Part shown: positions 3,240-44,339 of the stretch, piece by piece | Layout: every line of letters starts with the position of its first letter | Numbering within the stretch: the first letter of the stretch is position 1 | NCBI GenBank assembly: GCA_937861115.1 | Contig: CALMBD010000303.1 | Span: 22,181 to 86,180 of the forward strand | Length of the DNA: 64,000 nt | Direction: 5' to 3' | Origin: an uncultured Bacteroidota bacterium | GTDB lineage: Bacteria; Bacteroidota; Bacteroidia; Chitinophagales; Saprospiraceae | Notes under the pieces: generated by a model | Told to the model about the DNA's origin: nothing | What the model saw: the letters and a program-made list of their open reading frames with translations, nothing else | The model's database searches: none | Made by a program: the position numbers and the translations under genes

Positions 3240-6200
3240 TTAGTATCTGTCGAAATAATACCGCTCTCCGCCCATGCTATCGCTGACATACCGTTCGCGG
3301 TTGGCAAAGCGAGCCTCTCCGATCTTTTTGCGGATAAATTCTTCCTTTTCCTTTCCGGCCAGTTCGGGCATGACCTGTTTGATGGGGCCGTCGCCGAGGC
3401 TGCGGCCGTAGTAGTCATATGGATCGAAGGTTAAACCCGTATCTGCATCTTCCTTGGCCAGGTAGCTGAAGTCGTTGGGCATGGTAGCGCAAGCCAGCCC
3501 CCAGTCGTTGAAGTTTTTCGCCTTGATGTCGAAGAAATAAAGGGTCGCGGGTTTGTTGTTCAGCACGGTTTTATGCTTGCTGATGAATTGAATGGAATCC
3601 AGTTCGCGGTCTGCCCCTTCCATCAAATATGATTTGGCGAGCGCTACCGTATCGGTAAACCAGCCCGAGAAGGCTTGCAGTTTGTTTGTTTTCGCCAGCA
3701 GGCCGAAAAAGGCATATCGCGTTTTATCGTCCTCCGTGAACGGCTTCAGTTTATCCGGCGCGACCGGAATGCCGTTTCTAAGGTACAGGCCATAGGCCAG
3801 CAGCCGCACCTCATTGTCGCCGTATTTGATCGCGCGTTCCACCAGGCTCTTTACTTTGTCGTCCTTCGCCAGGAAAGGGGCGAGGAGCTGGAAATTGCGT
3901 TCAATCGTAGTGTTTGCGTCAGCGCCGTCGTAGTCCTCATAATAACCGTACTGGCCGTAGCCGTTTTCACTTTTGGCCCTGTCTGCTTCGTCTTCATATT
4001 GGCTTTGCGAGAGGTGCCAGGCTGTTTCGCGAAGGAGGGAGGGCTTGAGGTATTGGTAGGCTTTGGGCTTGATAAGCCCCCGTTTTACCAGGGCATTCAG
4101 TATTGTATATACTTCGTCGCGGTTGCTCTTTACGTCTGCGAGTTGCATCAGTTTCGGGAAAAAAGCCGCGGTAAGTTCGAGTGTATCGTGGAACCGGGAA
4201 AAAAGGATGCTTTTATCCTTGCCGAAGTAAATCGGGCGCTCCAGCCAGATGTCGAACAGCGTATTGAAGGATGCTTTGGTCTTCATGGCCGCCAATGCGC
4301 CGAGGGCCAGCGACTGGTAGCGGGCAGAGTCGGTGCGGGTGGAGCAAAAGTCGCGGAGCCAGGTGACGGCTTCGGGTGATTTGGAATCGCCGACGGCATT
4401 GATCAGGATCGAGCGTTCCAGGAATTTGAGTTTGTCGAATCCGGGGTTGGAGATGGCCGATTTCAGCATGGGAAAATCGCCCGGCTGAAAACGCACTCCC
4501 CATGATTTGCGCAGTTCGCTCAGCGCCGCTTTGCGTTTCAGGCTGTCTGTCGCGTAAATATCCTGCAGGAATGCTACGCTCCGCTCGCCAAAGCGCACGG
4601 GGCCGGTAATACTGTCGGTCGGCGCGAACGTCGAGAATACCGTCTTGATGAAATCTGTTTCCGGCGTCTTGAGGTTGACCGTAGCCTGAAGCGTGTACAT
4701 CCGCTTGTTGATCAGTACGATTTTTGCGCGGATGCCCCTGGTGCTGTTGGTGTCTTCAATCAGAAAATGACCGACGAGCATGCTGTCGACGCTTTCCCAC
4801 TTGCTTTCCCGAAGGGCCATTTTGTTGTTCCGGGTAAGCGTTTTCCGGATATCGAGTTCAAAGGAGTCGCGGGTAGGTACCGTGCCCCTGTTGGCAAAAT
4901 CGGAGGAACGCACCGAAACCTCCTCCCCGGTGAGGGGCGATTTCAATACACGGCCGCCGTTCATGCTCCAGTCGTACGCGTCTTCATTATCGTACATGCG
5001 ATACCGTTTGCGATTGCCTTCTTCGAATATTTTTTTCAGTTTTTCCATGAACGCCTTGCGGGGCTTCTCCGGCGTTTGCCGCATCTTGATCGTGAAATCC
5101 AGCGTGGTATCCGTCATTAGAGTCCAGCCCTCGGGGTACTGCATAGGCTCAATTGAAAATGAATTGAAGAACGCATCCGGCGCAACCTGCACTTTTTTCC
5201 GGCAGCCGAGCATGTAATAGTGGGGCCCGTCCACAACGATCCGGACAAAATGCCAGGCGCTGTCCCGTTCGGACTGGAAGGAAATGTCCTGTGTGGGATA
5301 GGGCGATTCCGACAACAGGCGCATCTGCGGCGCTTTTTTGGTAAACTGCTCGGCAATTTTTTCACCGATGATATTCAGTTCGAAGGTGTCTTCTTCTATG
5401 AAGCCCCAGTCGTGATAATCCGTGCGATACACGAAATAAAAGGCGCTGTCTGCGGGGTCTACCGTGGAGGCCATGAAGTACTGGGCATTTTTATCCTCTG
5501 TCGTGTTGACCTGCAGCGAAGCCGGGAAGGTGGCCTTGAAGCCGCCGTGACTTGGTTTTACGGTGACGGGTTGGCGCTTTGTTGCAGTCAGTTGGTGGGA
5601 AAACTCGATACTGTTCAGAAAGCGGTCTGCCTCTTCACCGAGCGCATAATCGCCGTTGCCGCCCGTGGTGAACATGATCACCTCGAACGGTGTCACGAAT
5701 ATCTTGTAGCGCTGAATATCGCCCCGGCGGGTGCGTGTTGTGATCTGGTGTCCCGGGAAGGGTTTGTCGAGCCGGATGCGCTCCTGGATTTTTCCCGGTA
5801 TTTGCTCATACAGCAGACTGTCGAGCCGTTCGGCGATGTATTCCGGGCGTTGGCCCGACCACCAGCCGAATGTTTTGAGCCGGTACACCGCATAAAAGGC
5901 GCCGTTGTTCATATCGGCGCAAAGGTTCTGCTCGAAGCCCCGGTAATTGGCCGTCGGATAGAAGTTGCCGGGCGCATCTGCCGACCACAGCGAATCTTTC
6001 GACCACTGTTTGGACAGATGGACGGGGTATCGAATCTTTTCGATCTCCTCCTTGTCCTGGTTGCCCCTTGCCGAAGTGAACCGGACCGGTCGCAGGGTAT
6101 AGCCCTTGCTGCGCAACAGGGTGATCACGCCCGTTTCGCCCGGCAGGTGCGCGGCGCCGACGGCTGAAAACAGCGAGGTGCCCGACTGCAGGATGGAATC

Positions 6201-6968
6201 GATGCGGTTGGCCATGATGATGTTGCGCTCGTCGAGCATCCATTTCTGGAAGTTCTTGCTGGGGCTCGACAATTTATTCAAAGAATCCAGCAGGGAAAGA
6301 TCCTGGTTGCGGTAGGCTTCCTCCATTTTGGATGGGTCGAAGTACCCGCGGTAGTAGTTATTGTTCTTTTTCTCGTCGTCATCGGGTATCTGGGCGCGCA
6401 TGGCCGCTTCGTAACTGCCTTCCAGTGTTTCCAGGCCGATCACCTTTTTCCCAAGTTTTCTGCCGGCCTGAAAAATGAATAAGTCGAGGTAAGTATCTTC
6501 TTCATATTCCTGCCTGTATTGGTTGGAGCGATATAAAAACTCGTTGCTCATGGCGGGTTTCCAGGAAAGCATGGCGCTAAGCAGTTCGTTTTCAGGGGCG
6601 GCAAACCGGAACGACTCGTTGTACAGGTTTTGATAGCCGGCCCTGCCGCCATATGCAGCATAGGGATTTCGGAGCGCCATGAGGCCATCTTCGTCGTCGT
6701 CCGACAAGTCGTCGGTAAACTGTTGCCACTCGTCGTGGTTGGTCTCCAGCGCCACCATGTCCACATTGCGCAGGGCCACAAAAAAAGTATCGCTGAGGTT
6801 AAAAACCAGTTTTTCCGAAACGTGCATGGTGCCGTACAGGTAGCCGGGTTTGGAAATTCCCTTGCCGGAAATTTCCCAAAGCAGGCCGGTCATTTTTTCG
6901 GGTTTGTTCTGGGCCTGGACCGAGATAAAACACAGGTTGAGTGCAAAAAGAAGGGCAATACGGAGCAT
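3240..6968 (-). CDS. Large secreted TraB/GumN-domain protein (1,242 aa)
   Basis: It starts with a signal peptide (MLRIALLFALNLCFISVQAQ). Residues about 25-295 form a TraB/PrgY/GumN domain, with the family's metal/active-site motifs intact: GTMH (46-49), ERN (247-249) and GAAH (271-274), plus conserved Glu at 75. In the related TIKI family such residues make a metalloprotease. Typical GumN-like proteins are about 300 aa, so the remaining ~950 aa are unusual. They comprise about three beta-rich modules (about 310-450, 460-600, 620-790) with paired aromatic/Tyr phrases, then a mainly helical region with HEAT-like repeats to the end. The role is unknown; a periplasmic or surface protease is inference. 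It ends five bases from the MITE-like unit. Confidence 0.8.
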   Translation of the reverse strand: MLRIALLFALNLCFISVQAQNKPEKMTGLLWEISGKGISKPGYLYGTMHVSEKLVFNLSDTFFVALRNVDMVALETNHDEWQQFTDDLSDDDEDGLMALRNPYAAYGGRAGYQNLYNESFRFAAPENELLSAMLSWKPAMSNEFLYRSNQYRQEYEEDTYLDLFIFQAGRKLGKKVIGLETLEGSYEAAMRAQIPDDDEKKNNNYYRGYFDPSKMEEAYRNQDLSLLDSLNKLSSPSKNFQKWMLDERNIIMANRIDSILQSGTSLFSAVGAAHLPGETGVITLLRSKGYTLRPVRFTSARGNQDKEEIEKIRYPVHLSKQWSKDSLWSADAPGNFYPTANYRGFEQNLCADMNNGAFYAVYRLKTFGWWSGQRPEYIAERLDSLLYEQIPGKIQERIRLDKPFPGHQITTRTRRGDIQRYKIFVTPFEVIMFTTGGNGDYALGEEADRFLNSIEFSHQLTATKRQPVTVKPSHGGFKATFPASLQVNTTEDKNAQYFMASTVDPADSAFYFVYRTDYHDWGFIEEDTFELNIIGEKIAEQFTKKAPQMRLLSESPYPTQDISFQSERDSAWHFVRIVVDGPHYYMLGCRKKVQVAPDAFFNSFSIEPMQYPEGWTLMTDTTLDFTIKMRQTPEKPRKAFMEKLKKIFEEGNRKRYRMYDNEDAYDWSMNGGRVLKSPLTGEEVSVRSSDFANRGTVPTRDSFELDIRKTLTRNNKMALRESKWESVDSMLVGHFLIEDTNSTRGIRAKIVLINKRMYTLQATVNLKTPETDFIKTVFSTFAPTDSITGPVRFGERSVAFLQDIYATDSLKRKAALSELRKSWGVRFQPGDFPMLKSAISNPGFDKLKFLERSILINAVGDSKSPEAVTWLRDFCSTRTDSARYQSLALGALAAMKTKASFNTLFDIWLERPIYFGKDKSILFSRFHDTLELTAAFFPKLMQLADVKSNRDEVYTILNALVKRGLIKPKAYQYLKPSLLRETAWHLSQSQYEDEADRAKSENGYGQYGYYEDYDGADANTTIERNFQLLAPFLAKDDKVKSLVERAIKYGDNEVRLLAYGLYLRNGIPVAPDKLKPFTEDDKTRYAFFGLLAKTNKLQAFSGWFTDTVALAKSYLMEGADRELDSIQFISKHKTVLNNKPATLYFFDIKAKNFNDWGLACATMPNDFSYLAKEDADTGLTFDPYDYYGRSLGDGPIKQVMPELAGKEKEEFIRKKIGEARFANRERYVSDSMGGERYYFDRY

Positions 6969-7441: not shown

Positions 7442-10400
7442 TTACCTCAATAACGCAATATCGCCCTTCAACGTTTCCACATCGCCGTTGGAGTATCGCA
7501 GCACGATGTAATAGACGTAAACATCACTCGGCGCATCCTTGCCGTCGACCTTCCCATCCCAGCGTTCTTTTCCGGGCGACGATTCAAATACTTTATCGCC
7601 CCAGCGGTTGAAGATGATGAATTGGGTGATCTCCGTATTGCTGCCGAAAAGCAGCGGACCGAAAGTGTCGTTTACGCCGTCGCTGCCGGGGGTAAAGGCA
7701 TTGGGCACGGCCAGGCATCGTTTGAAGTCGTACGTAACCGGCGCGGATTCATCCGAACAGCCGTTCGCAGCCGTGGCGATCACAGTAAAGGTCGCGCTGC
7801 CTTCCGGAACGGACGGTACAAACGTGACCGAATCACCTGTAACGCCCGGTATCGTGCTGCCGTCAATGGTCCAGGTCAGTACGGCAGACGCCGGTGTTGC
7901 CGAACTCTTCAACGTGATGGGTACGCCGATACAAACCGTGTCGGTCGGATCCGGCGCCGCGGTGATGTTTTCGACCGATACGCCGGGTATGACCGTCAGC
8001 CGCACCGTATCCGATTCCACGCAGTTGGCGCCGAAGGAGAGTGTTGCGGTATAGGTGGTGCTTGTCAGCGGATTTACATTGAAGGTATTACCCAGGAAAT
8101 TGCCGGGCGTCCAGGTAACATTGCCCGGTGTGCCTGTGGTGATCGCCGTCAGCGTAGCGCCGTCGCCAAAACAGATGGTCTGGTCCGGGCCGGCGTCGAG
8201 GGTAGCCGCTGCGACGGTGATCGTGACGGGCTCCTGTATGGTGCAGTCGGCGTTGGAGGCCGTGACCGTGTAGGTGGTCGTGGTAGTCGGGGTCGCAACC
8301 GGCGTGGCGCTGTTCGGGTTGTTCAGGCCCGTTGCCGGCGACCACGAATAGGTGACGCCCGGTTCCGAAACCGTGTTGAGCGCCAGGCTTTCACCGAGAC
8401 AGATGGTCGTGTTTTCGGCCAGATCGAGCGCGGGGATAGGCAGTACGGTGATGGTAACCTCATCGGTGAAGAAACAATCGGCGCTGAAGGCTATCGTAGC
8501 GGTATAGGTTGTAGTCACCGTCGGGTTTACATTGATGGAGTTGCCGGTAAGGTTGCCGGGCGTCCAGGTCACCGTGCCGGGGGTGCCTGTAGTTACCGCC
8601 GTCAGTGTAGCGCCTTCGTTTGCACAGATGGTTTGGTCGGGGCCGACATCAATAGTCGCCGACACGACGGTTACATTTACCTCCGCTTCAATATCACAGG
8701 CGGCGCCGGAAGTGGTCAGCGTATAGTTGGTGCTGGTTGTCGGTGTCGCAACCGGCGTCGCGCTGTTGGGATTGTCCAGACCGGTCGGAGGCGACCACAA
8801 ATACGTCACACCCGGTTCTGATATGGTATTGAGTTGGACGCTTTGGCCGAGGCAGAGCACCGGATTTTGCGGAAGGTTGAGCAATGGTAGCGGCAGTACG
8901 TTGACTGTTACGCTTGCGCCCGACGGACAGGGCACATCCTTGGCGACAATGGTATAGGTCGTAGTCACCATGGGCGTGGCTGTGGGGTTGGGGCAATCGG
9001 AGCAGGACAACGTGGTTGGCATGTCCTGCCATTCCAGCGTGAGGCCGGGCGGATCAGCCGTGACGGTGATCTGCGCAGACTCACCGGGGCAAATATCCGT
9101 CGGGTTAACCGTTGCCATAATGGTCGGCGGTATGGCAACCGGAACTTCAATAGAAGAAGTGTCCCTGCAACCCCGGTTGGTCACGATCCGCTCAAAAATA
9201 TGTGTGGAGGTAGCAGTAATAACCATGTTCCAGTTTTCGAGCGGGGTTTCCTGACCGCTGAACGGCAACCATTCGATCATAATGTCGGGGAAATTGGCAG
9301 GCTCGTAGGTCGGGGAAATGAGGTAAACCGTGTCGCCGGGGCAATAGATTTCCTTGTCCATTTCCCGGATCAGCGATTGATCGGGCAGGGAGTCTACACG
9401 AATCCGTACGGAGTCGCTGACGAAGCAGCCGTTGATGGTATAAGAAGCAAAAACGGTAACAGATTCGTCGGGATACGCTTTGACCGACGGGCCGGTCGTG
9501 GTGTTCAGGTAGAACGAGGGCGACCATTTTACATCTGCCCCTGTCGGGCTGAACAGAGCGTTCAGTGCCACGGTATCGCCCAGGCATATCTCGTAATAAT
9601 CATCCCCCTGAATTTCCACGTCGGCGGCGATCACATTGATCTTGACCGAAGCGGTTTGGGAACAGTAGTTGTTGGCGCTGGTGGCCACCAGGGTATAAGT
9701 GGTGGTCGCATCCGGCAGGGCAATCGGCCCGGAACTGGAGGCATCATCCAGGCCAAGGGTGGGCGTCCAGCTATACTCAGTCGTCGAGCTGAGCACATTG
9801 GCCAGTTGTACCGGGTAGTTCTGGCAAACCGTCGTATCCGTTGTGGTCAGCACCGGGAAAAACAGGGTGTCGACATTGATCGTCACCTGGTCGCTGACGG
9901 AGCAACCGGCAATGGAGACCGTAGCGGTGTAGGTTGTGGTAGCCAGTGGTGTTGCCACGGGTGTGGGGCTGTTCGGGTTATCCAGTCCGGCAGCAGGTGT
10001 CCACACCAGTCCGGTGTTGTTCACATTGTTATTGGCCTGGAGCAGGACCGCAGTGCCCTGGCAGATGTTGGTGGGTGTCAAGGCAACCACTTCGATTTCC
10101 GGGTCAATGATCCGGATATAAACGGAATCGACATCCACGCAGCTCGATACGGTACCGGTCACTTCAAGCCAGATGTCCTGGGTCGGAGTGATGGTCGGAT
10201 TATTGATGAAAGGGTTGCTGACGGCTCCGGGGGGCGCCCAGAAGTAGTTGGAAGCGCCTTCAGCCTGCAGTTGCAGCGTGCTGCCGGCACATACGAACAG
10301 GGTGTCGCCGCCGATCACATTCACCGTGACATTATCCGCCAGTTCCACCGTAAGTGTTTTGTACACCACCGTTCCGCAACCGAAATTATTGGACAACGAG

Positions 10401-19746: not shown

Positions 19747-20658
19747 CTAATCTTCCTCGTCCATGACGACAGGGGTGCTGCGCACCCCGTTGCTTTTGTT
19801 GGCATGATAGGCGAACAGGCAGGCTGTCCAGAAGGAATAGAGGGAATACACCAGGGCGGGTTTGACCATATCCTGGTTGCCGAGGAGGTTGTTGGCGATC
19901 AAAAAAGCGAGGGTCGTATTTTGTACGCCGCTTTCCATGGCAGCCGTGATGCGCGAAGCATGGGGCAGCGCCATATATTTCATAAAAAAGTAGCCGAAAA
20001 ACAGGCAACTCGCATTTTGGATCAGGGCAACCGGGGTGATGACCAGAAAATCGCTCCATTTCAGGCCTGCACCGCCGTGGCTTTCCCCGGCAAACATCTT
20101 GATGGCGAATACCATAGCCAGCAAGACCAGCATCACGTATTTGGACGGCTTGCTGATCGTATTGGCAAACAGTGGAAACCGTTGTCGTACAAACAGGCCG
20201 ATCGAGGCCGGAATGATCGTGATAAAAAATATCTGGCTTACCGTTTCCCAAAAGGGGAGATGCAACTCCGTTTCCTTGCCGAGAAATACCCGGAGACCGA
20301 TGTTTACCACGATGGGGATGGAAAACAGGGTAAGAAAACTGTTCACGGCAGTCAGCGACAGCGATAAGGCTACATTGCCGCGCCACAGATAGGTCAGGAA
20401 CCCGGAGGTTGCGCCGCCGGGACTTGCCGACAAGATAATAAACCCCACTTTTAGTACTGCGGGTATCGGCATCAGCAGGCTGATCGCAAATGCAATAATG
20501 GGCAGCCCGATCATCTGGGCACTCAAAGCGGTAAAAAACGCCCGGGGGTGCCTGAAAATATGAATAAAGTCGGTGATCGTCAGCGATAAGCCAACACCAA
20601 ACATCACCAGCCCTAATACTGAACTGACGGCAAGGTCTACAACTGCAGTGGGAGCCAA
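19747..20658 (-). CDS. Bile acid:sodium symporter (BASS) family transporter
   Basis: A 303-aa inner-membrane protein with about nine hydrophobic segments. It carries the BASS hallmark ILSASPGGATSGFLTYLWRG (about 75-94) and a second crossover segment (MESGVQNTTLAFLIANNLLGN, about 240-260). Family members co-transport sodium and organic anions such as bile acids or pantoate; the substrate here cannot be read. The frame appears to begin with TTG at 20658, since the first in-frame ATG (residue 19) would cut into helix 1. A perfect -7 box lies 22-29 nt upstream, which fits the TTG start. Confidence 0.85.
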   Translation of the reverse strand: MAPTAVVDLAVSSVLGLVMFGVGLSLTITDFIHIFRHPRAFFTALSAQMIGLPIIAFAISLLMPIPAVLKVGFIILSASPGGATSGFLTYLWRGNVALSLSLTAVNSFLTLFSIPIVVNIGLRVFLGKETELHLPFWETVSQIFFITIIPASIGLFVRQRFPLFANTISKPSKYVMLVLLAMVFAIKMFAGESHGGAGLKWSDFLVITPVALIQNASCLFFGYFFMKYMALPHASRITAAMESGVQNTTLAFLIANNLLGNQDMVKPALVYSLYSFWTACLFAYHANKSNGVRSTPVVMDEED

Positions 20659-20679
20659 AGGGGAACAGTTTTACGGCCG

Positions 20680-20687
20680 CAAACTTA
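20680..20687 (-). promoter_or_regulatory. -7 box (TAAGTTTG) of the BASS transporter gene
   Basis: On the minus strand TAAGTTTG matches TAnnTTTG. The expected start near 20673 leaves about 15 nt before the proposed TTG start codon. Confidence 0.45.
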
Positions 20688-20767
20688 CAGGAAAACTCCA
20701 CATAGCACTACGTCGCCACACACTATTAACGGCGCGATATCTTTTTCCACCCGATATTTGCAGGGTT

Positions 20768-21544
20768 ATGAAGATAACTGCTTTCTATATCGCCGAAGAA
20801 TTAAGCCTCAAGGGCATCAAGGCCGCCTATGCCGGCGCCTTGCTACAGGAAACGCCTTCCGAACTTTTTTACCGCCTCGATGAGGACCGGTACATGTACG
20901 CGTTCGATTACGGCGCCGTGGTATTTGCCAACCTGGATGACACGGATATCAGCAAAAACCTGGCGCTGCTGCTCCCGCTTTCCGGACACCTGCTGCCGGA
21001 AAAAATCCGGGAAGACCTGGAGATCGTGCACCGCCCGGAAGCGCAAATTGACTTTGGGTTCGACGCACTGGTGGTGCCGGTCCTGAGTGTCGATGTGATC
21101 AAAATCGCCATGCTTAATGCCGCCCATTCGGTCGCCATGGATTTTTATTCCTATCGCGCCGATGAACTGTTGTCGGAAATCCGTCGCTTTACCGATCAGA
21201 TGGAAACCGACGGCTCGATCCGGATCAGCCGGAAAAACATGCTGCGGTTCATCGGGCGCACCCTGAACAGCAAAAACAGGGTCGTACAGAACCTGTTCAT
21301 CTTTGATGCGCCCGACCTCACGTGGGAAGACGAATACCTCGACCGCATCCATCGGGGACTTTCCCGAACGTTTGAAATACCCACCCGTTTCAAGGAGGTC
21401 GAGTACACCTTCAAGGTCGTGGAAGACAACCTCAGCGTGTTTCGCGAACTCTACCTCCACCGCGAAAGCAGTAAACTGGAGTGGATCATTATCATCCTGA
21501 TCTGTATCGAGGTATTCGATCTTATCCTCAGCAAGATTATTTGA
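20768..21544 (+). CDS. RMD1/DUF155 family membrane-anchored protein
   Basis: A 258-aa protein from the ATG at 20768; upstream codons are out of character and overlap the divergent promoter. The core shows the RMD1/SIF2 (DUF155) pattern: an N-terminal alpha/beta part with YMYAFDYGAVVFANL (about 42-56), a helical middle, and a C-terminal hydrophobic anchor (EWIIIILICIEVFDLIL, about 238-254). Yeast members sit in mitochondria or act in meiotic division and sporulation. Bacterial members have no assigned function. It is convergent with the BtuG-like gene, whose stop is only 15 nt away. Confidence 0.8.
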   Translation: MKITAFYIAEELSLKGIKAAYAGALLQETPSELFYRLDEDRYMYAFDYGAVVFANLDDTDISKNLALLLPLSGHLLPEKIREDLEIVHRPEAQIDFGFDALVVPVLSVDVIKIAMLNAAHSVAMDFYSYRADELLSEIRRFTDQMETDGSIRISRKNMLRFIGRTLNSKNRVVQNLFIFDAPDLTWEDEYLDRIHRGLSRTFEIPTRFKEVEYTFKVVEDNLSVFRELYLHRESSKLEWIIIILICIEVFDLILSKII

Positions 21545-21559
21545 AATCCCGCTACGGTT

Positions 21560-22597
21560 CTATTCCACAATGATGATCTCGCCCGGTCCGACACCGACGG
21601 GGAAGGACCCCTGCACGACTCCTGCCGTATTGTAAATGAACACTTCGCCCTGACCGACGAAGTTATTGGGGTCTGCACAGTACAGTTCGCCGGTCGTCGG
21701 GTGGCAGGCAAGCCCGTAGGCGTCCTGTGCAAATAACTGGGTGACCGTAAACTGGTTAGCGGACCATACTTTCCCTTCGGCGATGAAATACAACTGGTTG
21801 CCCGAAGGGCTGCTGCACAGGTCGTCGGCAAATGCCGGCACAGTGAAGCCGGCGCCGGCCGGATCAAATTTGTCCAGAAAACCGCCTGCGCTCGGGTCGT
21901 CGAACGGACCTTTGCACAACACCCAGGGGTTGGCGCCGGTAAAGTTGGCGCTGGCAAAACAACAGGGATTCAGCCCTCCCACCGTAATACGCGCGTCTTC
22001 GGTTTCCGTGCTCAGGTTAATGACAGAAACGGTGGAATCGACCCCGAATCCGCCGCCGTTGGCGACAAGCAGGGTATTCGCATCTTTCAGGAACATTTTC
22101 TCGGGCCCTGTACCGGTTGGAATAACCTTTACGACCTCGTTGGTATTCAGGTTAATCTTGGCGATACTGCCGTCGAGACCGTCTTTGCCCCACTGGCTGA
22201 CATAGGCGAAATTATTGTCGATGGGCATAAAATACCTGGGACCGATCAGTCCTCCAATCGTATCGACATACCGGAACGTCATCTGATCGACGACCACAAC
22301 CAGGTTGATCCCGTTGACACAGATGTAGCCTTTGCCGTTGTGAAAAGTGAGCGACTGGACAAATTTACCCAGCGCACCGTTGTTTTCCCGCCCGAAAACG
22401 TCCTGTACGGTGACGTCGGTATCCGGGTTGTGCCAGGTGATGGTTCCGCTGCCGGAAGTGCCTTCGTTTACGACAAAAATGCCCTTGGAGTAGTCGTAAA
22501 CCGGCAAGGTGTTATCATCGCCGCCAAGATTGCAGGCGCTAGTTGCCAGTATGGTTGCAGCAAAAAACAGGAATTGATAGAGATGGCTAACCTTCAT
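21560..22597 (-). CDS. YncE/DUF5074-type beta-propeller lipoprotein, BtuG-like (cobalamin-linked)
   Basis: A 345-aa lipoprotein. The signal peptide ends in a lipobox at Cys22 (TSAC), followed by NLGGDD; acidic residues here resemble the Bacteroidota surface-export signal. The mature part shows repeated four-stranded blade phrases (KGIFVVNEGTSGSGTITWHN, SIAKINLNTNEVVKVIPTGTGPEKM, STVSVINLSTETEDARITVGG), as in seven-bladed YncE-like propellers. In Bacteroides, BtuG proteins of this class bind cobalamin at the cell surface and pass it to BtuB. A cobalamin riboswitch directly upstream strongly supports that role here. No BtuB partner is adjacent. Naming it BtuG is inference from fold plus regulation. 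Confidence 0.75.
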   Translation of the reverse strand: MKVSHLYQFLFFAATILATSACNLGGDDNTLPVYDYSKGIFVVNEGTSGSGTITWHNPDTDVTVQDVFGRENNGALGKFVQSLTFHNGKGYICVNGINLVVVVDQMTFRYVDTIGGLIGPRYFMPIDNNFAYVSQWGKDGLDGSIAKINLNTNEVVKVIPTGTGPEKMFLKDANTLLVANGGGFGVDSTVSVINLSTETEDARITVGGLNPCCFASANFTGANPWVLCKGPFDDPSAGGFLDKFDPAGAGFTVPAFADDLCSSPSGNQLYFIAEGKVWSANQFTVTQLFAQDAYGLACHPTTGELYCADPNNFVGQGEVFIYNTAGVVQGSFPVGVGPGEIIIVE

Positions 22598-22734
22598 TTT
22601 TGAATGTTTAAGTTATTGATAACGAACGGAAAGCGGGAAAGGAGGTCGATGACAACACCAATAGATTCCGCCAATGCAGGCAGGACGGAACCAGAATAGT
22701 CGCCATATAACCCGGCCTTCACCCGAAGCCCGAT

Positions 22735-22920
22735 CAATGCGTTGGTTAGTGGCAGGTCTTCTGGCTCGTTTCGACGAGGAGCACCTTCCCGGTTTCCCAG
22801 TGGTGTTGCGGCTCTTCGCTTTGAATGAAACTTACAGCAGCGGGGACTGCCCCGGATTTTCACCGGTGTTCCCTTTTAATCGGAATAAGGCGAATGATCG
22901 CCTACCGAACCAAAACCGGG
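22735..22920 (-). ncRNA. Cobalamin (B12) riboswitch
   Basis: On the minus strand the conserved parts appear in order. First comes ATTAAAAGGGAA, then GGTGAAAATCCGGGGCAGTC continuing CCCGCTGCTGTAAG (22864-22831). The GCCACTGGGAAACCGGGAAGG-like region (here ACACCACTGG...) follows, then the B12 box AGCCAGAAGACCTGCC (22766-22751). About 140 nt separate the box from the ATG of the BtuG-like lipoprotein, enough for an expression platform. It sits in the 440-nt gap between dinB-like and BtuG-like genes and should repress the latter when cobalamin is plentiful. Confidence 0.93.
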
Positions 22921-22955
22921 ATAAAAGTATGACGGGTTTTAAGATTTCGGAGAAT

Positions 22956-23513
22956 TCAACCCTTTGAAATTGTCGCCTGGACCTGAATAACATGCCGTTG
23001 CAAGTGCAGGACCATGTATTCCAGGAGGTCGCCCAGCATAAACTGAAACCCGGGCCACCGGAAATGCGGTACCCTCGTTTTATTCAGGTTGACTTGCCGC
23101 GCCTGCTGGATGCACCGCAACAACATTTCACAATTGATCAGAAAGGCTTTGAACTCAAAAGGCCGGATGCTCAGTCGCGCGGGGTCCATCCGCTTTGGAC
23201 TCTTTCGGCGTTTTTTACTTGTGTTCTCAGGGCGAACGGCGTTTATGGCCATGCGTCCGAGCCAGGTTTGCCTGCGCTCGTCGGCAGGCTCCCAACTTCT
23301 TGCCTTGGATTTATGGATGGCTCGTTCGATCTGCGGTAGAAAGTAGTCCGAAAACGCATTGAGGTGGGCAAAACATTCCAGCGCGTTCCAGCGCCCCGGC
23401 CCCGGATGCAGGAGAAGCGCTTCTTCGGGAAGTGCGGAAAATTGCGAGCGGGACTGCTCCATGAGTTGTCGTAAGTCGGATTCGAGGCGGTCAAGCAGGG
23501 CGGTCTGCGTCAT
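22956..23513 (-). CDS. DinB family protein (DinB_2)
   Basis: A 185-aa four-helix-bundle protein. The three metal-binding histidines of the DinB/YfiT superfamily are recognisable: His50 (CFAHLNAFSDYF), and His170 and His174 (EYMVLHLQRHVIQ). Homologues include bacillithiol or other low-molecular-weight-thiol transferases and many proteins of unknown function. The substrate cannot be predicted. A basic insert (KKRRKSPKR, about 100-108) is unusual. The gene ends just before the cobalamin riboswitch. It is divergent from rimO, with a perfect -7 box at 23542-23549. Confidence 0.85.
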   Translation of the reverse strand: MTQTALLDRLESDLRQLMEQSRSQFSALPEEALLLHPGPGRWNALECFAHLNAFSDYFLPQIERAIHKSKARSWEPADERRQTWLGRMAINAVRPENTSKKRRKSPKRMDPARLSIRPFEFKAFLINCEMLLRCIQQARQVNLNKTRVPHFRWPGFQFMLGDLLEYMVLHLQRHVIQVQATISKG

Positions 23514-42155: not shown

Positions 42156-44339
42156 ATGTTGAAATTCGCCTTGTCCGTTTTTTTTACGATTCTGATCATT
42201 ACCGGTGCGGAAGCACAGGTTACACCAGATACACTTGTTCCTTTCGTGCTGCGCGAGGTCAATATTTCTGTTCAAAGGGAAAATATCCGGCGGTTGCCGC
42301 AGGTTCAGGGCACCTATATCTGGTCGGGTAAAAAAAGTGAAGTCATCAACCTCGAATATACCGACGCCAATATTTCGGAAAAAACGGCACGGCAGGTATT
42401 CGCCAAAGTGCCCGGCGTTTTTGTGTACGATATGGACGGTGCAGGCAACCAGACCAATATCTCTACCCGCGGACTCGATCCCCACCGGGGCTGGGAGTTC
42501 AACATCAGGGCAGACGGGATCATAACCAATTCCGATATGTACGGTTATCCGGCCAGCCATTTCAGCCTGCCGATGGAGGCCATTGGCCGTATCGAACTGG
42601 TGCGCGGCACAGGAGCACTTCAATACGGGGCACAATTCGGCGGCATGCTGAATTATGTGCTGAAACAGCCCGATACGACAAAGAAATTCGGACTGGAAAG
42701 TATCAACGCCGCCGGATCATACGGACTGCTGAGTACCTATACTGCCATCGGCGGAAAGATCGGCAAGCTTCGGTACTATACCTTTTTCAACAAACGTATA
42801 TCGGATGGCTACCGCGACAACAGCGCGTCCGACTACGACGGCCAGGGCATTGTGTTGCAATACGCAGCCGCTTCCAATATTGTGCTCAAGGCATCTTTGC
42901 TGCGCTCCAACTATGTTTACCAACTACCGGGCCCCCTGACGGATGCCATGTTTGCCGCCAACCCGCGGCAATCGACCCGCTCCCGCAATTTTTACAGCCC
43001 GGAGATCTATGTGCCGTCGTTATCTGCAACCTGGAATATCAGCGACCGCACCCGCCTGAGTTGGACGGCCTCTGCCGTGCTGGGAGAGCGGCGCAGCGTG
43101 ATGTTCGACCGGCTTGCCACTATTCCGGACACCATCAACCGCAATACACTGGATTACAACCCCCGCCAGGTAGACCTTGATCATTTCAACAGTTACACCA
43201 CGGAAATGAGGTTGTTGCAGGAATACGCCTTGTTTGGGCGGAACTCCACCCTGGCGGTTGGAGTGCAGTATATGAACAACGACCTCAATCGGCAGCAACA
43301 AGGCAAAGGCACTACCGGATCAGATTTTGACATGACGATCGACGCTTCGGGCTGGGGCCGCGACCTGCATTTGCGGAGCCGGAATATCGCGCTGTCCCTG
43401 GAAAACAGGTTCCAACTGACCGATGCATTTTCAGTTAGTCCGGGTATCCGTGTCGAATCAGGCGCCTCCAAAATGACAGGAAAGACTTCATACTACGATC
43501 CTGCCGATCTGCCCAACACCATCAACCATAAATTTGCCTTGTTGGGCATCAGCGCGGATTATGCCCTCGGCGGACAGCAAAACCTGTACGCCGGATGGTC
43601 ACAGGCATACCGGCCGGTCATCTTCAAGGATATTGTGCCCGGCAATGTTTACGAGCAATCGGATAAAAACCTGAAAGATGCTTCCGGGTATAATATGGAA
43701 CTGGGCTGGCGCGGTTCGAAAGGGGGACTCAAATGGGATGTCAGCGTTTTTTCCCTTCGATACAACAATCGTCTGGGCAATCTCGCCCGGTACAACGGCG
43801 CCCTGGATACGTTTGTACTGTTCCGGACCAATATCGGCGATTCGCGCACGACCGGGCTTGAAATGTTTGCCGAATACGGCTTCCGGGTTTTTGATGCCGT
43901 GCATGTCAGCATCTTCACTTCCACGGCCTGGTTCGACAGCAAATACCTGGGCGATTCGCTGCGTGTGAGCAGCACGGAAAACAAAAGCATCAAAGGCAAA
44001 CGTGTGGAAAGCGTTCCTGAATGGATCAGCCGGAACGGGCTGAATATTCGATACAGCAACCTGAGTGTTTCCCTGCTGTACAGTTATACCGGCGAAACAT
44101 TTTCAGACCCCCTGAACACGAGAACACCGTCGGCCAACGGCGCCGTAGGGCTTGTGCCGTCGTATGGCTTGCTCGACCTGAATGCGTCGTACCGCGTGCA
44201 CAACCTGACTTTCCGGCTGAGTATCAATAATATCACCGACAAGCAGTATTTCACCAAACGCCCGACATTTTACCCCGGACCGGGCATTTGGTCTTCCGAC
44301 GGGAGAGGCATGGCGCTGTCGGTAGGGATACGGTTATGA
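42156..44339 (+). CDS. TonB-dependent outer-membrane receptor (FecA-like)
   Basis: A 727-aa protein with a signal peptide (MLKFALSVFFTILIITGAEAQ). The plug domain (about 55-175) shows VPGVFVYDMDGAGNQTNIST, RGLDPHRGW, and IELVRGTGALQYGAQFGGMLNYVLK. A 22-strand-type barrel fills the rest, ending in GMALSVGIRL. There is no CarboxypepD-like N-terminal extension and no SusD neighbour, so uptake of an iron chelate or similar small ligand is more likely than glycan uptake. The plug wording is closest to FecA-type receptors. No partner TonB or regulator genes are nearby. A B12 role cannot be excluded, as the window holds a BtuG-like gene at 21560-22597. Confidence 0.9.
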   Translation: MLKFALSVFFTILIITGAEAQVTPDTLVPFVLREVNISVQRENIRRLPQVQGTYIWSGKKSEVINLEYTDANISEKTARQVFAKVPGVFVYDMDGAGNQTNISTRGLDPHRGWEFNIRADGIITNSDMYGYPASHFSLPMEAIGRIELVRGTGALQYGAQFGGMLNYVLKQPDTTKKFGLESINAAGSYGLLSTYTAIGGKIGKLRYYTFFNKRISDGYRDNSASDYDGQGIVLQYAAASNIVLKASLLRSNYVYQLPGPLTDAMFAANPRQSTRSRNFYSPEIYVPSLSATWNISDRTRLSWTASAVLGERRSVMFDRLATIPDTINRNTLDYNPRQVDLDHFNSYTTEMRLLQEYALFGRNSTLAVGVQYMNNDLNRQQQGKGTTGSDFDMTIDASGWGRDLHLRSRNIALSLENRFQLTDAFSVSPGIRVESGASKMTGKTSYYDPADLPNTINHKFALLGISADYALGGQQNLYAGWSQAYRPVIFKDIVPGNVYEQSDKNLKDASGYNMELGWRGSKGGLKWDVSVFSLRYNNRLGNLARYNGALDTFVLFRTNIGDSRTTGLEMFAEYGFRVFDAVHVSIFTSTAWFDSKYLGDSLRVSSTENKSIKGKRVESVPEWISRNGLNIRYSNLSVSLLYSYTGETFSDPLNTRTPSANGAVGLVPSYGLLDLNASYRVHNLTFRLSINNITDKQYFTKRPTFYPGPGIWSSDGRGMALSVGIRL

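Follow-up and report, generated by a model that had tools for sequence, protein, structure and literature searches.

Here we report a probable split BtuB/BtuG system of vitamin B12 uptake in an uncultured Saprospiraceae bacterium, in which the capture lid would be the only B12-regulated part. The window, meaning the whole 64-kb stretch of DNA that was analysed, carries a cobalamin riboswitch followed by a single gene for a BtuG-like lipoprotein; no btuB gene lies near it, and the homologue detected by a BtuB profile at E <= 1e-20 is encoded on another contig (C245) of the same genome. In the mechanism that we propose, the riboswitch in the 5' leader would sense intracellular cobalamin and shut down btuG when the vitamin is plentiful. 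Under B12 shortage, the BtuG lipoprotein would be made and anchored on the outer face of the outer membrane, where it would bind extracellular cobamides in its aromatic-lined, acidic propeller and, acting as a lid on the TonB-dependent BtuB encoded on C245 without a riboswitch, would pass the vitamin on. Regulation would act on the capture lid rather than on the channel. The binding and lidding roles are assigned by analogy with B. theta, where, according to excerpts of two reports, BtuG binds cobamides outside the cell and lids BtuB (PMC10404256, PMC6143338); we also infer that B12 represses btuG and leaves btuB unregulated. The features of the locus are the following.

22734-22929, minus strand: full-length RF00174 cobalamin riboswitch aptamer (cmscan)
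22751-22767, minus strand: B12 box GAGCCAGAAGACCTGCC (exact position in the sequence)
22714-22731, minus strand: conserved, hairpin-capable stretch GGGCTTCGGGTGAAGGCC, 3' of the aptamer (leader alignment)
21560-22597, minus strand: predicted BtuG-family seven-bladed propeller surface lipoprotein, 345 aa (DUF5074, BtuG matches, AlphaFold, Foldseek)
22532-22597, minus strand: lipoprotein signal peptide and lipid-anchor Cys22, then NLGGDDN, export-signal-like (sequence)
20573-21544, plus strand: DUF155 gene (RMND1/Sif2-Sif3/Mrx10; Pfam), convergent, with 15 bases between the gene ends
22956-23513, minus strand: DinB_2 gene, the upstream neighbour (Pfam)

The DUF155 gene is the convergent RMD1 neighbour named in a preliminary description of this DNA, and the riboswitch-btuG unit looks monocistronic. 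Elsewhere in the window, 3240-6968 encodes a 1242-residue protein whose sole Pfam match (E <= 1e-5) is TraB/PrgY/gumN, in its first 300 residues. The locus was compared across 60 genomes, comprising a genus group of 37 (G000-G036, with G000 being the genome of the window) and a wider-order set of 23. In 19 of the 37 genus genomes the riboswitch is followed by BtuG with no BtuB seen beside it, and this layout is called class A below.

The aptamer matched all 189 positions (1-189) of the RF00174 model at 102.7 bits, far above the gathering threshold of 31.5 (E 1.4e-24; cmscan, Rfam), so that a riboswitch core and B12 box previously read by eye at 22735-22920 proved right within 10 bases. At several outer-stem pairs of the model, the cmscan alignment shows non-standard pairing for the window aptamer. 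No other Rfam match reached its gathering threshold within the 64-kb window, and no second RF00174 match was found anywhere in the genome (5.7 Mb, 96% complete). The B12 box has identical or near-identical copies in the leaders of relatives, and GGCTTCGG, 3' of the aptamer, is common to the leaders of all 19 aligned class A genomes. By eye, the CGGG of GGGCTTCGGGTGAAGGCC can pair with a CCCG of the aptamer, presumably as a kissing loop of the L5-L13 type. The start of btuG lies 136 bases from the 3' end of the aptamer. An inverted repeat, seen by eye in 17 of the 19 class A leaders, is formed by an upstream CTTTCAT and by ATGAAAG at the start codon; its ten-base form, CTTTCATTTT/AAAATGAAAG, was counted by eye in seven leaders, and in one genome (G013) the two halves stand far apart. 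In the leaders of six relatives (L083, L084, L085, L086, L087 and L091), imperfect palindromic repeats of the GACTCAGGACT or GCGAAGTC type follow one another between the post-aptamer stretch and the btuG start codon.

It could be argued that the aptamer is vestigial or has another target, with BtuG expression being insensitive to B12. The window leader holds no run of six T and, in the leader alignment inspected by eye, lacks the CTTTCAT/ATGAAAG repeat of most relatives, and the nearest relative (L160, 64% identical) has DinB followed by BtuG as in the window with no aptamer between them, owing to genuine loss or to a gap in the assembly. We consider this reading very improbable in view of the full-length, high-scoring match and of the conservation of the aptamer, the B12 box and the following stretch ahead of BtuG proteins that are 44-51% identical to that of the window. 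In the L160 genome no cobalamin riboswitch was found among the 96 of 295 candidates that were scored. At that locus (8300-9120, JAKOXM010000482.1) BtuG starts about 36 bases after DinB, and the CTTTCATTTT/AAAATGAAAG start-codon repeat is kept.

The product of the gene at 21560-22597 matched Pfam DUF5074 at 37.3 bits (cut-off 27.2) and the TIGR02276 propeller repeats at 34.2 bits (cut-off 27.85). A lipobox-like LATSA immediately precedes Cys22 and NLGGDDN follows it; the acidic segment noticed earlier after the lipid cysteine stands in so far as NLGGDDN counts as an acidic export signal, and falls short in that its acidity amounts to two Asp only. Cys22 is invariant in 20 of 20 rows of one alignment (A3) and in the 78 rows of a larger one (A4), whose rows were picked by script for an early Cys and omit three of 80 BtuG loci (L160, L224 and L229). 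With phmmer the protein matched solved BtuG chains at E 1e-19, and a 20-row profile matched BtuG2 (8bmx_D) at E 1.2e-43 over nearly its full length. The AlphaFold model from 78 rows has a mean pLDDT of 94 and a pTM of 0.89, and in a Foldseek search with it the first 16 places were taken by BtuG structures, namely BtuG1/2/3 of B. theta and 3dsm, an entry of the BtuG type (TMq 0.75-0.80, best E 3.8e-23). BtuK1 (PDB 9s6c), a B12-binding lipoprotein of B. theta with a similar fold, occupies ranks 17-19 and is more distant from the window protein than BtuG (TMq 0.68-0.69). The profile and model comparisons support membership of the BtuG family with a predicted propeller of the BtuG type, in agreement with the earlier suggestion of a BtuG-like propeller lipoprotein as the lone gene behind the riboswitch.

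The ligand site of BtuG2 includes the aromatic residues W194, Y239, W272, Y316 and Y335, as given in an excerpt of PMC10404256. All five positions are aromatic in the window protein (F184, F232, F256, Y294 and F313, mapped by hand on the profile alignment), with Trp194 and Trp272 replaced by Phe and the equivalent of Y335 being without the hydroxyl. In A3, all 20 rows have Tyr at position 294 and an aromatic residue at position 313, and 13 have an aromatic residue at position 256. The mature lipoprotein has a net charge of about -18. Identity to solved BtuG is 20-25% in the structural alignments, which would also suit a generic YncE-type propeller unrelated to B12; such an interpretation is barely credible, given that structural matches 1-19 are all BtuG or BtuK1, that the profile spans BtuG2 almost end to end, and that the gene sits behind a cobalamin riboswitch.

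Using strict filters, we found the riboswitch in 29 of the 37 genus genomes. Besides the 19 of class A, one genome (G005) has the order riboswitch-BtuG-BtuB, eight have riboswitch-BtuB-DUF4465 (class B; one member scanned with Pfam), and in G033 the riboswitch runs into a contig end. In the class A genomes G017, G020, G021 and G026, btuG is closely followed by a same-strand gene without a known B12 role. The contig ends soon after btuG in G004 and G030, so that in these two only the BtuB found elsewhere argues against an assembly break. The class B loci are L093, L094, L095, L096, L097, L098, L099 and L100; the one DUF4465 protein scanned also has a secretion-tail match, and in G002 (L097) the contig stops within the DUF4465 gene. 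Secretion tails in each of the 60 genomes were also picked up by the DUF4465 profile, and counting was therefore restricted to domain-covering matches. Neither an unlinked BtuB nor a BtuG was found in the eight class B genomes, the one exception being a 51-residue match at E 4e-4 in a 1563-residue frame of G002. None of riboswitch, BtuG and BtuB was found in G001, G018, G019, G029 and G036, of which G018, G029 and G036 are less than 90% complete.

Among the best 80 of 190 BtuG loci from named genomes, BtuB is adjacent in 47, a riboswitch precedes BtuG without BtuB in 24, neither BtuB nor a riboswitch accompanies BtuG in seven, and the upstream region is too short in two. The riboswitches of these 80 loci were called by pattern, with Rfam confirmation for L186, L189, L228 and L229, and many of the 24 riboswitch-BtuG loci appear to come from the same MAGs as the genus set and so are not independent of its 19. 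The contig ends less than 1 kb after btuG in 5 of the 24 and in 2 of the 7 riboswitch-less loci, so that a downstream btuB could be missed there. One locus (L229) lies on the single-record chromosome CP058702.1 of Candidatus Parvibacillus calidus, where the sole riboswitch precedes BtuG and the pair is located about 1.14 Mb from BtuB. Given that 19 of the 37 genus genomes and one single-record chromosome share the layout, it is neither an accident of draft assembly nor unique to this genome. An assembly break hiding btuB was rejected on the strength of the 19 genomes with BtuB elsewhere and of that chromosome. The reverse split was observed in two genomes (G069 and G070), where a riboswitch stands before BtuB and BtuG is encoded elsewhere without one; the BtuB loci are on contig C258 of G069 (L247, L262) and contig C99 of G070 (L252, L256), and the BtuGs are at L227 and L230.

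The partner in the window genome is a single full-length homologue on contig C245, which scored 462 bits against the BtuB profile and was the sole match at E <= 1e-20. All four PDB matches of its product at E <= 0.001 are BtuB (best 8bmx_C, E 1.8e-39). With the sole RF00174 of the genome at btuG and the BtuB on C245, the capture gene lies behind its own riboswitch and apart from btuB, as had been proposed from the window alone. A strong unlinked BtuB homologue is present in each of the 19 class A genomes (338-486 bits), five of which have a second, weaker match (82-168 bits; G008, G014, G021, G028 and G034). Four further genus genomes have an unlinked BtuB, namely G033, G024, G015 and G010 (in part); in G024 (95% complete), G010 (82%) and G015 (77%) it occurs with neither riboswitch nor BtuG.

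Cobalamin riboswitches were not detected at the unlinked btuB genes that were scanned. RF00174 was absent at the gathering threshold from 13 scanned of the 23 unlinked-btuB loci of the genus, and in genome searches each class A genome showed a single riboswitch, the one at btuG. In the window genome, the 601 bases around the btuB start gave no RF00174 match even at E 10, and the 248-base gap upstream of the gene holds nothing resembling a cobalamin aptamer at that threshold. For 11 of the 23 unlinked btuB genes, with start codons picked by script, the start is at most 41 bases from the upstream gene or overlaps it; these upstream genes form a single cluster, of which one member, scanned with Pfam, is of the AhpC/TSA type, and by abutting or overlapping btuB they leave no room for a riboswitch. 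In relatives, the unlinked btuB also lies beside a gene that we take to be a malate dehydrogenase. The check for a btuB with a second riboswitch, proposed in the preliminary description, was negative: none was found by genome search or at the scanned loci.

The neighbours of btuB in relatives, the AhpC/TSA-like gene and the supposed malate dehydrogenase, could be taken to mean that the C245 TonB receptor carries something else and that BtuG pairs with another receptor of this genome. The C245 gene also scores about half as high as linked BtuBs (462 vs 805-877 bits), though on a profile of 18 rows drawn exclusively from riboswitch loci and therefore from linked BtuBs only. Against TIGR01779 (TonB-B12) it reaches 25.5 bits, under a cut-off of 599.7 that is exceeded in only 1 of 14 control genomes, and several receptors of the genome rank above it, the best with 83.7 bits on contig C128 and the window's own TonB receptor at 42156-44339 with 45.9 bits. 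The latter was considered as the BtuG partner; it has no BtuB-profile match at E <= 1e-20. Pairing with another receptor is nevertheless improbable, because the C245 product matches only BtuB in the PDB, is the only profile match in the genome at this threshold, and belongs to an unlinked group that co-occurs with BtuG and is sister to the BtuG-linked BtuB of G005. The 83.7-bit TonB receptor is encoded at 1877-2266 of its contig (L061).

These relationships were obtained from a quick maximum-likelihood tree of 56 BtuBs, which left out BtuB frames of <500 or >745 residues as well as those of G038, G039, G055, G058 and G059, and in which the G047 row is wrongly labelled as linked. The 22 unlinked BtuBs form one clade (SH-aLRT 100), sister (89) to the BtuB of G005, the genome that keeps riboswitch-BtuG-BtuB. 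A separate clade (100) holds the eight class B BtuBs and is placed near those of the Cytophagales type (86); deeper joins are unsure owing to long branches. On these sequences, the simplest reading would be that btuB left the riboswitch locus once in the genus, with btuG staying; the relatives are non-independent and the split may be one event.

The absence of a neighbouring btuB had also suggested a separated or scavenging version of the surface B12 system. In the scavenging form, the lipoprotein would not dock to BtuB and would by itself store or soak up B12, or scavenge it on vesicles, for which there are precedents in excerpts of published work: B. theta BtuH surface binders are not stably associated with BtuBG (PMC10404256), deletion of btuB2 leaves BtuG2 mainly in the supernatant (PMC6143338), and BtuJ proteins deliver B12 by vesicles (PMC12751083). 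One genome (G061) has riboswitch-BtuG and no BtuB match, though only about 390 bases of its contig remain beyond btuG and a linked btuB could be missing. We regard lone action as unlikely: a strong BtuB homologue is encoded at another site in each of the 19 class A genomes, which makes a split BtuB/BtuG pair the simpler reading, and the five genus genomes without BtuB are also without BtuG. The separated version is the one in keeping with these data.

Compared with the BtuG2/BtuB2 locus (locus 2) of B. theta, the system shares the riboswitch, the lipoprotein propeller, its fold and ligand-site aromatics and a BtuB homologue in the genome, and differs in that btuG stands alone behind the riboswitch, with btuB unlinked and without one. 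According to excerpts of the respective reports, btuG of B. theta is always next to btuB (PMC10404256), and gut strains have btuG in 106 of 109 btuB operons (PMC6143338). The DUF4465 or BtuH-BtuJ surface B12 binders resemble the window protein as riboswitch-linked capture proteins (eight class B members); they are jelly-rolls, as described in an excerpt of PMC13398666, whereas the window protein is a predicted propeller, and in class B they are linked to BtuB, unlike the window btuG. A further resemblance is seen in three genomes (G065-G067), two Aureispira and one marine Saprospiraceae, where a cobalamin riboswitch is followed by a propeller-like gene with a T9SS tail (L279 6835-8136, L280 6591-7883, L281 5022-6320), predicted to act at the surface, and btuB lies elsewhere. 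These propellers differ in having a secretion tail (Pfam, L279 scanned) and no lipobox cysteine that could be seen, and a sequence search of the PDB with the L279 protein gave no BtuG match.

With respect to the inner-membrane step, the window genome gave no match to a FecCD (BtuC-type) permease, and strong matches occur in only 2 of the 37 genus genomes (G012 and G033). A small membrane family, DUF6580, is present in 35 of the 37; its gene in the window genome lies on contig C112 (L270 6805-7350). Six of the 23 wider-order genomes (L105, L111, L113, L117, L118 and L120) carry DUF6580 no more than about 5 kb away from the riboswitch of a btuB locus, and in L199 it is a neighbour of BtuG. Across the 60 genomes, DUF6580 tends to be missing where there is a strong FecCD match (>200 bits, a threshold of our choice): of the genomes with DUF6580, 2 have such a match and 48 do not, and those lacking DUF6580 split 5 with to 5 without; these co-occurrence tests treat related genomes as independent and are indicative only. 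Against a role in B12 transport, four of the five genus genomes that have no outer-membrane B12 parts do have DUF6580, and its neighbours in seven genus regions examined are without known B12 role. No PDB homologue was found by profile, a single-sequence structure model (pLDDT 55.8) was too poor for structure search, and no mention of DUF6580 was found in the openly licensed literature searched. DUF6580 is a candidate inner-membrane B12 carrier replacing the BtuC-type permease. The genome also has four genes with B12-binding domains, among them presumably ones of the MetH and methylmalonyl-CoA-mutase types.

Literature searches, confined to listings and excerpts of openly licensed papers, brought up no description of a riboswitch-btuG unit separated from btuB. 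A broader reading, possible and rather doubtful, is that the lineage reads its B12 status at the surface lid, which is swapped on and off an unregulated BtuB coupled to a housekeeping redox gene, with DUF6580 replacing BtuCD. Under such lid control the riboswitch would govern the extracellular binder only, a lipoprotein BtuG here and a T9SS propeller in some relatives. Lid-only control is not the rule for the whole group, as in class B and in G069-G070 the riboswitch leads btuB. The relatives provide natural contrasts for the split BtuB/BtuG system, including riboswitch-BtuG alone, riboswitch-BtuG-BtuB and riboswitch-BtuB-DUF4465, as well as riboswitch-BtuB with BtuG elsewhere and a relative having BtuG and no riboswitch. 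Annotators should not take the lack of a btuB beside btuG as the lack of the system, and DUF6580 is pointed to as a candidate carrier of B12 across the inner membrane. Regulation of the lid and of the channel is hard to separate where btuG is kept beside btuB, as in the BtuG loci described in the excerpts available; a lineage in which the two genes are uncoupled would make it testable whether capture, and not the channel, is the controlled step.
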